NCBI GenBank assembly: GCA_030681895.1 | Contig: JAUXRI010000316.1 | Location: 1 to 64,000 of the forward strand | Source: Myxococcales bacterium | GTDB lineage: Bacteria > Myxococcota > Myxococcia > Myxococcales > Myxococcaceae | Reading direction: 5' to 3' | DNA length: 64,000 nt | In this document: positions 28,242 through 31,456 of the stretch, piece after piece | How the letters are laid out: each line of letters opens with the position of its first letter | Position numbering within the stretch: the first letter of the stretch is position 1 | Notes under the pieces: model-generated | What the model saw: only the letters and a program-made list of their open reading frames with translations | Databases searched by the model: none | Told to the model about the DNA's origin: nothing | Made by a program: the position numbers and the translations under genes

Positions 28242-28925
28242 TTAGCCGTGCGCGGTCACCACGATGGCGGGCCGCTCCAGCTTCGCGGTGCCGAACAGCA
28301 GGTCCCACAGCGGGAAGGTGCCGGCGAAGTGCGAGTCGTACTCACGCGGGTCGGCGCTGTGGTGGCGCTGGTGGAAGACGGGAGAGGTGAGGAGCCAGTA
28401 CAGCGGTCCGAAGCTCCAGCGCACGTTGGCGTGCAGGAGCGTGGTGAAGGCCTTGCGAAGGAGCACGACGCTCCCGAGGTCTGACAGCGACGCGCCGAGC
28501 AGCACGCCCGGCAGGCCGACCACGACGCCATGCACCACGAAGTCGACGGGGTGTTGCCGCCACGCATCGAGCCAGTGCAGCTCGACGGCCTGGTGATGGA
28601 CCTGGTGGAACCTCCACAGCAGCGGCACGCGGTGCATCGCGCGGTGAATCCAATAGCCGAGCAGATCAGCCGCGAAGAAGACGAACACCACCCGGCCCGC
28701 CGTTCGTGAGGCAGGCGCGTTCACCAGTGACGCCAGCCCGTCGAGGAGGGGACCACCGAGGAGCTCCATGAGGACGGTGTTGAGGATGAAGAGCGCGGCT
28801 CCGATGAACATCGAGCGGGTCGAGGCGCGAGGTGACGTGCCCGGGGCCAGGTACTCGAGCGGCACGAAGAGGCCTGCCATCAGCACGAGGAAGACCAGCG
28901 CGCCGAGCAGCGTGGCCGACAGCAT
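28242..28925 (-). CDS. Sterol desaturase / fatty acid hydroxylase family membrane enzyme
   Basis: A protein of 227 residues with four or so membrane helices and the three His clusters that bind a di-iron centre in this family: HRAMH near residue 114, HQVHH near 126 and HQRHH near 205. These enzymes add hydroxyl groups or double bonds to sterols, carotenoids or fatty chains using O2. Its ATG overlaps the stop of a 50-residue membrane protein gene (TGATG), so it is the third gene of a tight operon starting at 29366. The substrate cannot be told from sequence. Confidence 0.9.
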   Translation of the reverse strand: MLSATLLGALVFLVLMAGLFVPLEYLAPGTSPRASTRSMFIGAALFILNTVLMELLGGPLLDGLASLVNAPASRTAGRVVFVFFAADLLGYWIHRAMHRVPLLWRFHQVHHQAVELHWLDAWRQHPVDFVVHGVVVGLPGVLLGASLSDLGSVVLLRKAFTTLLHANVRWSFGPLYWLLTSPVFHQRHHSADPREYDSHFAGTFPLWDLLFGTAKLERPAIVVTAHG

Positions 28926-29077
28926 CAGTACGCCTCGAACACGCCGAAGAAGAGCTGCGGGCGACCGAGGTCGTGGAGTGGCGGGTCGACGAAACCCTTG
29001 TAGACGATGGAGCCGAACGCGACCCAGGCGACCGTCAGCACCGCGAGCGCGAGAAATCGACGCAGCGCGCGGCTCAC
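28925..29077 (-). CDS. Small single-helix membrane protein, 50 aa
   Basis: A 50-codon gene starting at GTG 29077 and ending in TGA overlapping the ATG of the hydroxylase gene. Residues 7-27 (RFLALAVLTVAWVAFGSIVYK) form one membrane helix with a basic N terminus, so the C terminus probably faces the periplasm. The last residues are FFGVFEAY. The protein encoded just upstream ends FGRFEGY, so the two share a C-terminal FGxFExY signature. Coding support comes from the 1-base overlap with the next gene, the tight spacing from the previous stop, and the shared tail. No known family is recognised. Confidence 0.72.
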   Translation of the reverse strand: MSRALRRFLALAVLTVAWVAFGSIVYKGFVDPPLHDLGRPQLFFGVFEAY

Positions 29078-29078
29078 C

Positions 29079-29366
29079 TCAGTAGCCCTCGAACCGGCCG
29101 AAGCGGACGCGCCGTCGCGTGTTCGGCTTCACCTCTTCCGGCACCAGGATGCCCAGGTCGACGGGCACTTCGATCTTCAGCTTGCGCATCGTGACCGGGG
29201 TCGCGGGCGTGAGCGCGTCATCGAGCTGCTCGACCGATTCCGTCGCGCGCGCTTCGGCGATGTCCGCGACCACGACGGCGGCCATGACCGACATCGACGC
29301 CGCCATGGCCACAGCAGCCGCCACCATCGTCGGGGCCTTGCGAGTCTGCTTTTCGTGCAACGCCAT
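29079..29366 (-). CDS. Small membrane protein, 95 aa, first gene of micro-operon
   Basis: A protein of 95 residues with a basic N terminus (MALHEKQTRK), one Ala/Val/Met-rich helix (about 13-36) and a polar C-terminal domain with VTMRKLKIEVPVDLG, ending RFGRFEGY. GAGGTGA lies four bases before the ATG, a good ribosome site. The following small gene starts one base after its stop. The C-terminal FGxFExY signature is shared with that protein, which suggests paralogy or a common docking or sorting role. Function unknown. Confidence 0.78.
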   Translation of the reverse strand: MALHEKQTRKAPTMVAAAVAMAASMSVMAAVVVADIAEARATESVEQLDDALTPATPVTMRKLKIEVPVDLGILVPEEVKPNTRRRVRFGRFEGY

Positions 29367-29467: not shown

Positions 29468-30400
29468 TCACCTCGCGCGGCGCGTGGACCGAGCTGGCAT
29501 GCCGACCCGCGCGCGCGCGGCCTCGAAGTCATGAGCGATCACCATCACGCTGGCCCACATGCGGAATGGCGCCCACGCGCGCGCGACCGACTCGACCTGT
29601 TCGTCGCTCGGCACGCCCTTCAGGCCGTACGCGATGGCGACCGCGCCATGGAGCGTGCGTTCGCTCAGCGGTAGCACGTCGAGCGGTCCACACCCGCGCA
29701 TCAGAATCGCGTCGGCTGTCCACGGGCCCACGCCGCGAATCTGCATCAAGTCCTCCCGCGCCTTCGTGAAGGGCATCGCGGTGAGCCGAGCGACCTCGAG
29801 CCGGCCTTCGAGCGCGGCGGTGGCGACGGCCTTGAGCCGCTCGAGCTTCTCGTCACTGAGCCCGGGGAACGAGCGGAGCGCGAGGAGGCTCTGCGGGCGC
29901 GGAAACGAGGCGACCGCTTCACCGTCGACGAGCGAGACGTCTCGTGCCTGCTCGGCGATGCGCACCTGGAGGGCCGCGGCCTGGGTCATTCGGATTCGCT
30001 GCGAGAGCACCGACCACCCCGCCATCACGTACGGCGAGTAGGCGACCACGGGCCGGAACCCGCCGGGCGTTGCGCTCGAGATGCGCGCAAGCACGGGGTC
30101 ACCATCGAGGACGCGGCGCCACCCGTCGACGTCGTGGTCGAGCGCGAGGAACCGCGCGACCTGTTTGCGCACGACGTCGAGGGCGGCGGTTCCGGTGGCG
30201 CGAGCCTGCACGGTGGAGTCGTCGAAGCGCAGCGTCACCGAGATGACGTCGAAGGTGCCGTCGAGCGGGAACGCCACGGTGACGTCGTTCGCGTTGCAGC
30301 TCCTGCTTCCTCTCAAGAAGCCGCAGGCCAGCTTTCGTACCGGCTCGAGCGAGAAGGGTGGTGGTGCGTCGAGGGTGAACGTGAGGGGTTCAGCGCGCAT
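29468..30400 (-). CDS. DNA-3-methyladenine glycosylase II-like protein (AlkA family), altered catalytic position
   Basis: A protein of 310 residues with AlkA architecture: an N-terminal beta domain (1-110) and a helical glycosylase domain with the helix-hairpin-helix LMQIRGVGPWTADAILMRG (218-236). These enzymes flip out and excise alkylated purines. In relatives the catalytic Asp lies three residues after the Pro of the DVFPxxD motif. Here the stretch is LDVLPLSERTL, so Glu247 takes that place. Whether Glu supports catalysis is uncertain. The gene starts at ATG 30400 inside the end of a MarR-type regulator gene (11-base overlap), so the two are co-expressed. Confidence 0.86.
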   Translation of the reverse strand: MRAEPLTFTLDAPPPFSLEPVRKLACGFLRGSRSCNANDVTVAFPLDGTFDVISVTLRFDDSTVQARATGTAALDVVRKQVARFLALDHDVDGWRRVLDGDPVLARISSATPGGFRPVVAYSPYVMAGWSVLSQRIRMTQAAALQVRIAEQARDVSLVDGEAVASFPRPQSLLALRSFPGLSDEKLERLKAVATAALEGRLEVARLTAMPFTKAREDLMQIRGVGPWTADAILMRGCGPLDVLPLSERTLHGAVAIAYGLKGVPSDEQVESVARAWAPFRMWASVMVIAHDFEAARARVGMPARSTRRAR

Positions 30401-30803
30401 GGAGGGCCTCCAGGTGAGAGACATCGACGCCAGCGAAGAAGCGACGGTCGACCTCACGCACCAGCGCTCCGCAGGCGCGCAGCTCGTCCCGGCCTGCCGG
30501 CGTCAGCTCGAGCCGCCAGGTGCGCGAGTCCTTCGGGTCGTCACGCCGGATGATGAGTCCGCGCTGCTCGAGGGCTCGCACCACCTGCGACGTGGTCATC
30601 GGGTCCGTGGCAGCCGACTTCGCGACCTCGGCCTGGGTCGGTGCGCCACGACGGCCGTGCCAGGCGATCGCTCCCAGCACGAAGAACTGCGTCGCGGTCA
30701 GGCGTTCCCCGAGGGTGTCCTGAACGGCTGCGCGCCAGGCGAGCGCTGCGTGCCAGAGGTGGAAGCCAGGGCTTCGGGAGGGGGCCTTCGCCTGGTCTGT
30801 CAT
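30390..30803 (-). CDS. MarR-family transcriptional regulator
   Basis: A protein of 137 residues from ATG 30803, with the winged-helix core of MarR proteins: LTATQFFVLGAIAWHG, then PTQAEVAKSAATDPMTTSQVV as recognition region and LEQRGLIIRRDDPKDSR as wing. MarR proteins are dimeric repressors that often respond to small aromatic or oxidising molecules. An imperfect palindrome lies just upstream of its own start, suggesting autoregulation together with the overlapping AlkA-type gene. An in-frame extension upstream is unlikely because it would cover the AT-rich promoter. Confidence 0.9.
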   Translation of the reverse strand: MTDQAKAPSRSPGFHLWHAALAWRAAVQDTLGERLTATQFFVLGAIAWHGRRGAPTQAEVAKSAATDPMTTSQVVRALEQRGLIIRRDDPKDSRTWRLELTPAGRDELRACGALVREVDRRFFAGVDVSHLEALHAR

Positions 30804-30817
30804 ATGCGTCACTATGA

Positions 30818-30831
30818 TATATGCACATATG
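30818..30831 (-). promoter_or_regulatory. Likely MarR operator
   Basis: ATATG-CA-CATAT at 30819-30830 is an inverted repeat in an unusually AT-rich patch 15 bases upstream of the MarR start. Overlapping TATGATAT could serve as a -10 element. This matches the usual MarR autorepression layout. Confidence 0.6.
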
Positions 30832-31456
30832 AAATGCCAGCCCCGGCAGAGACGCGCCACGGGAACTGAGCGTGTGAGCACGTCGTCGTTGTTCGGACAG
30901 GTGCGACTTCAACGCCGGCTTCGACATCGGCAGCGCTACGAGACCGGCGTCAGCCTCGAGGGAGGCTGAGCACTCGCGAGAGTCGCAGCATTTGACGTCG
31001 GGGGAGTGGAGGGACGGCGCGCGCGATGACTCGAGCTTGGGCCCGTTGTCGACGCGGTCGGTGCCTGAGCTCCGGCGGCGTCACGCGGCTTCACGATGAG
31101 CGGGAAGCCCACGCACGGGACGTTCGGCGACCTTCATGGTCAGCGACCGGCCGCCGCGTCCCGTTCCTGGCTGCCAGCGCTCCAGAGGGGACGAGGGCAT
31201 CAGCGCAGAGGGCGCTCCGATGCCTCGAGTGTCGGTCGTCGTGAAGGAATCCGGCGCACTCCGCGACGAATCACCGGTTCGGGTCCAGGGAGCCGGTGGC
31301 GGGCGGCATTCCGAACACGTCTCGGGCGGGACGTGTGGCGCATCGCGGTTGACGCATTTTCACGTCAACCGCGAGCTCTCTGGAGTCCGCGACGAGACGT
31401 GTTCCAAACGTCGCCCGCCGCTCTCCGCCGACGCGGCCCCCGACCTCCAGTAGCGG
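30832..31456. other. Gene-poor stretch with no supported coding region
   Basis: About 620 bases without a convincing gene. Open frames here are Arg-rich with no ribosome site and no recognisable protein character. The right part holds three hairpins (31315-31414, listed separately) and the stretch runs into a DUF2378 gene fragment. The region looks like decayed or mobile-insertion-scarred DNA, but I see no transposase or terminal repeats. Confidence 0.6.
31315..31414. repeat. Cluster of three perfect inverted repeats
   Basis: Within 100 bases there are three hairpins. ACACGTC/GACGTGT has arms of 7 and a loop of 8 (31315-31336). CGCGGTTGACG/CGTCAACCGCG has arms of 11 and a loop of 8, CATTTTCA (31344-31373). 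GCGACG/CGTCGC has arms of 6 (31389-31414). The middle one is the strongest intergenic hairpin seen outside terminators. It could be a structured RNA, a protein-binding array or the end of a lost element. Confidence 0.7.

Follow-up and report, generated by a model that had tools for sequence, protein, structure and literature searches.

Small predicted exported proteins with a shared C-terminal FGxFExY tail are inherited with a membrane di-iron hydroxylase in myxobacteria

Why would two tiny proteins, encoded immediately before a membrane enzyme, end in the same short peptide? The question is raised by a 64,000-nucleotide stretch of DNA (hereafter the window; assembly GCA_030681895.1, contig JAUXRI010000316.1) from a member of the Myxococcaceae, a soil bacterium. 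The original prediction described three genes in tight succession, two of them encoding single-helix proteins of 95 and 50 residues (P95 and P50) and the third a sterol desaturase-family hydroxylase. The succession was borne out (Table 1): a single base lies between the P95 stop and the P50 start, and the P50 stop and the hydroxylase start overlap as TGATG. Both tails, RFGRFEGY and FFGVFEAY, are present as described. The prediction had also credited the tail to the hydroxylase, which was an error: the enzyme ends in VVTAHG, and the tail is common to the two small proteins only. Just upstream of the three genes, on the same minus strand (29468-30881), a MarR-type regulator is directly followed by a gene resembling a DNA glycosylase (HhH-GPD, below cutoff).

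Table 1. Features of the three-gene locus (positions are those of the window)
Feature	Coordinates	Strand	Description	Basis
P95	29079..29366	minus	95 aa, ATG start, predicted exported or single-helix, ends RVRFGRFEGY	ORF list, homologues
P50	28925..29077	minus	50 aa, GTG start, predicted single-helix, ends LFFGVFEAY	ORF list, G003 homologue
Hydroxylase	28242..28925	minus	227 aa, membrane di-iron, FA_hydroxylase (sterol desaturase) superfamily	PF04116, alignments, AlphaFold2
P95 hydrophobic segment	29253..29327	minus	about residues 14-38	sequence and predicted helix 10-45
A-E-A, P95 residues 37-39	29250..29258	minus	possible signal peptidase I site	family alignment; putative cleavage
P95 tail codons FGRFEGY and TGA stop	29079..29102	minus		
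P50 tail codons FGVFEAY and TGA stop	28925..28948	minus		

The original prediction had proposed a search for tailed short proteins beside hydroxylases, and we ran it with a DNA pattern for F-G-x-F-E-x-Y-stop, using the same pattern reversed as a control. Across 195 Myxococcota genomes, the pattern gave nine matches in six genomes and the reversed control none. Eight of the nine belong to clusters containing this same hydroxylase, where they directly precede the enzyme or, for the 95-residue type in the window and in genome G003, precede a 50-residue gene that itself lies before the enzyme. The ninth (L082, G003:C420:29409-29543, minus strand) is a lone 45-residue single-helix ORF ending in PPVFGTFEGY with no adjoining hydroxylase; G003 carries it in addition to the full three-gene set, and no homologue was found in the other 39 of the 40 genomes searched. 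Scanning 84,980 species genomes for FGxFEGY returned 37 stretches. With helices judged by eye, only nine of them, all from Myxococcota, had the tail in frame on a small protein containing a hydrophobic helix; the remaining 28 hold short frames or frames lacking a helix and look like background. New tail loci were found in Nannocystis (L096), Myxococcales (L112) and Polyangia (L119) metagenome-assembled genomes, each with an orthologous hydroxylase as the next gene. In GC-rich DNA one might suspect a pair of spurious short ORFs that end alike by coincidence, and the window does hold many overlapping open frames. We give this a negligible probability: it is contradicted by a gene order kept across genera and classes and by nine matches against none, and the pattern control and conservation in relatives together exclude a tail arising by chance.

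Tailed P95 homologues precede this hydroxylase in eight genomes besides the window's (G002, G003, G006, G108, G109, G195, G196, G197), five of which (G108, G109, G195, G196, G197) were first found through the tail pattern, so that the exact tail is there partly by construction. Because some loci had come in through the tail, we also searched from the enzyme, running a profile of the hydroxylase (A2) against 377 Polyangia-side genomes and 195 from Myxococcota; this search and one starting from P95 are the only two free of the tail-pattern bias. All intact close orthologues (about 370 bits or more against the hydroxylase profile) had a tail gene directly upstream (8/8, or 9/9 once G196, from the tail scan, is added). 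The original prediction had staked itself on finding the small genes and the tail in relatives with the same hydroxylase, and the P95-type gene and the tail are conserved there. The next scores came from a broken copy in G002 (234 bits) and from G547 (223 bits), with everything else at or below 163 bits. The G547 hydroxylase (L130), the next-closest, is preceded by a small hydrophobic ORF ending in SDLYDGY, possibly a divergent form of the tail to judge from its aromatic, acidic, Gly and Tyr residues. Starting from the P95 profile, eight loci in seven of the 195 genomes were recovered, all adjoining this hydroxylase, with six intact and two broken. The same profile recovered only the two seeds present among the 377 Polyangia-side genomes, a silence that is weak because no more than 12 candidates per genome were scored.

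The broken loci point the same way. In G002 (C64) the hydroxylase is frameshifted, which could be an assembly error, and the tail is altered to FGAFDGC; in G018 (L055), a case of natural decay, the hydroxylase is reduced to a short C-terminal remnant and the P95 homologue ends in FGPLEGY. A broken hydroxylase thus goes with an altered tail in both cases, few as they are. Within the window's genus the distribution is patchy (intact pair in 4/7 genomes). The prediction of two small partners held in general for the P95 type, but the P50 type lies beside the hydroxylase in two genomes only, the window's and G003, where its homologue (C642) is 56% identical (E = 8.4e-5), and the lone 45-residue ORF of G003 is one further copy. 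A common tail function tied to the enzyme is supported by the joint conservation, but the docking, sorting and accessory roles that had been suggested cannot be told apart by sequence. The joint inheritance of enzyme and tail in only distantly related myxobacteria makes the tail a probable working part of a module not described before; our search of the accessible literature found no account of such a small-protein/hydroxylase pair.

Conservation within P95 is concentrated at its end. Among ten aligned members, eight of 72 gap-free columns are invariant, five of them in the last seven (hypergeometric p = 8e-5), and the tail has a pairwise identity of 0.87 against 0.29 for the remainder, figures inflated by the five rows that were found via the tail pattern. 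The tail codons differ at third positions and include synonymous changes, and the tail appears to be the selected part because the rest of P95 is poorly conserved. AlphaFold2 predicted one helix (residues 10-45) and no helix or strand beyond it. Basic residues precede the helix and acidic ones follow, so an N-in/C-out orientation is expected from the positive-inside rule. In the family alignment Ala39 is invariant and position -3 is mostly Ala, otherwise Ile, Leu or Val. Because these residues would suit signal peptidase I, the helix may be a signal peptide cut by this enzyme, and cleavage may leave mature P95 as a free peptide some 56 residues long. The predicted single helix per small protein stands as a hydrophobic segment, but in P95 it may be cleavable and not an anchor. 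Neither P95 nor P50 matched anything above cutoff in Pfam or NCBIfam, nor did the L096 member (Pfam and NCBIfam) or the L112 member (Pfam), and a sequence search of the PDB gave no match up to E 0.01. Weak matches of P95 to DUF5849 (E = 0.0099) and choice_anch_P (E = 0.013) fell below cutoff and were set aside.

The third gene encodes a member of the FA_hydroxylase superfamily (PF04116, E = 3.5e-27, 95.9 bits against a gathering cutoff of 31), many bacterial members of which have, to our knowledge, no known substrate. Its histidine motifs are H94xxxH98, H107xxHH111 and H185xxHH189, with H94/H98, H107/H110/H111 and H185/H188/H189 invariant in 62 rows, and orthologous hydroxylases are 51-68% identical to it. 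The AlphaFold2 model, built from 62 sequences, is confident (pLDDT 92.7, pTM 0.88); helix order and positive charges suggest that the N-terminus is outside and the histidine cluster cytoplasmic. A Foldseek search of the PDB with this model yielded 20 matches at E ≤ 10; none of them reached E ≤ 0.001 and the best had a probability of 0.08, which leaves no usable fold match. The nine tail-associated hydroxylases share 22 invariant residues that are each present in under a quarter of 52 relatives, and many of these lie around the active-site motifs (W122, Q124, F129, H132, G137, K158, T161, T162). The nearest named family is OlsE (NF052566, E = 1.4e-19 over residues 78-213), at 70.6 bits against an equivalog cutoff of 475. 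The window's enzyme resembles OlsE in superfamily and histidine motifs, but differs in the clade-specific residues of the active-site region and in its upstream small partner, for which the OlsE passages of PMC3972451 give no counterpart.

A wider survey classed 107 hydroxylase loci by their upstream small protein. Besides the nine of the tail class, 40 encode, directly before the enzyme, a single-helix protein whose motif resembles [FY]xx[AGS][TS]K[SA], four a hydrophobic protein ending in -GY, four another hydrophobic protein and 50 none by this criterion; among these 50, L154, L203 and L220 were later seen to have the [TS]K motif, while L186 stands for the broken copy of G002 with its altered tail. 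The upstream genes of two further hydroxylases (L143, L153) end in -GY and appear by eye to hold a PASTA-like repeat. On a tree of 84 of the 107 hydroxylases, from which we left out rows shorter than 190 aa or beginning late in the profile, the class of small protein tracks the enzyme, with 12 changes versus a shuffled mean of 37.5 and none of 200 shuffles as low. The [TS]K protein was found in 42/46 members of one clade and 0/38 outside it; as the expression [FY]xx[AGS][TS]K was drawn from the same loci, the former fraction is descriptive and the latter the control, and both count sequences rather than events, near-identical genomes being included. We read this as motif class following enzyme class within a module. 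Hydroxylases of this related clade (L128-L234) are about 30-36% identical to the window's, with an overlapping upstream single-helix or lipoprotein-like gene, and the window's own genome also has such a locus (G000:C18, L225). Pairs of this class are present in well-assembled Myxococcaceae genomes too. The motif occurs three times in the small protein of L135 and twice in those of L140, L166, L224 and L228. Of 40 related-clade pairs, 31 have the small-protein stop overlapping the start of the hydroxylase (at -2 or +1), and 11 of the 40 small proteins carry a lipobox-like Cys.

Several known systems offer partial parallels. CydX, CcoQ and KdpF are small single-helix subunits of membrane enzymes; by description, they share with P95 the pairing of a tiny hydrophobic protein with a large membrane enzyme encoded alongside it, but in P95 conservation is highest in a C-terminal motif beyond the helix and not in the helix itself. 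In RiPP-like systems, which pair a precursor peptide with a modifying enzyme, a small gene lies directly before the enzyme and a conserved short motif sits on a variable carrier. The same arrangement was found here, and in the related class the motif copies are also repeated; modification of the motif by the neighbouring enzyme is hypothetical, and the carrier differs in being predicted to be exported and membrane-associated. The sorting tails PEP-CTERM and MYXO-CTERM, a C-terminal hydrophobic helix followed by basic residues, are likewise conserved C-terminal signatures of exported proteins, but the hydrophobic segment of P95 is N-terminal and its motif forms the extreme C-terminus. A PEP-CTERM-type sorting tag was rejected on this anatomy, as the helix lies at residues 10-45 and neither helix nor basic cluster follows FEGY.

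We conclude that a small partner, predicted to be exported, and a coupled membrane hydroxylase form a real, inherited myxobacterial module in which the tail is probably the functional part of one partner class. In the reading we favour, and hold to be about evenly balanced between right and wrong, P95 (here also P50) would be a dedicated small exported partner of one membrane di-iron hydroxylase subfamily, encoded in tight succession with it and most likely serving as an adaptor or regulatory subunit. The C-terminal F-G-x-F-E-[GA]-Y would be its working part, carried on a poorly conserved linker without predicted structure and either tethered to the membrane through the N-terminal helix or set free outside as a peptide. 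Such a subunit would work on the outer side of the inner membrane, meeting there the hydroxylase or the lipid that the enzyme consumes or produces. Here we infer a single transcript, an outward C-terminus, a cytoplasmic active site, physical contact, and an adaptor rather than a substrate. With the tail predicted outside and the histidine cluster inside, the two would not meet in the mature state, which argues against a tail that simply slots into the active site.

The same sidedness weighs on a rather unlikely alternative, that the small protein is itself the substrate: the hydroxylase would modify its motif prior to export or in the course of it, much as a modifying enzyme treats a precursor peptide. 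Because the final positions are predicted to be opposite, modification would have to precede export; moreover, the two motif classes have no obvious common target residue, and we know of no member of the FA_hydroxylase superfamily that acts on a protein. In favour of a substrate are the restriction of conservation to the motif on a variable linker, the two or three motif copies of some related-clade proteins, the differing residues of the active-site region between clades, with the tail and [TS]K classes as two substrate types for two active-site types, and the proximity to OlsE, homologues of which hydroxylate the ornithine part of ornithine lipid (PMC3972451). Extended to the whole branch, with each clade hydroxylating the conserved motif in the exported small protein encoded beside the enzyme, the proposal is quite unlikely; if true, FGxFEGY in one clade and [FY]xx[AGS][TS]K, in up to three copies, in the other would be hydroxylated motifs of a new type of envelope peptide, made on ribosomes and then modified. 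The small proteins might also act outside on their own, for example by binding a hydroxylated lipid or another envelope protein, and be only co-regulated with the enzyme. Predicted export, the lone tail peptide of G003 away from any hydroxylase and the lipobox-like Cys of the related clade fit this, but we consider it improbable: the related-clade overlaps and the short gaps of the tail class suggest coupled, matched synthesis, and motif class follows enzyme class. Very improbable is a tail that arises as a side effect of translational coupling, its Phe-Glu-Gly codons supplying GAGG as the ribosome-binding site of the next, overlapping gene. In the window and G003 the next start does follow GAGG by 7-10 bases, but Phe-Gly and Tyr are left unexplained, and this reading was rejected because G108, G196 and G197 keep the tail with the next start 22-38 bases past its stop, too far for such a site.

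The module contributes small, predicted exported proteins that current family models do not cover. That motif class follows enzyme class provides a handle on specificity: the motif may direct the enzyme to its target, or may be that target itself.
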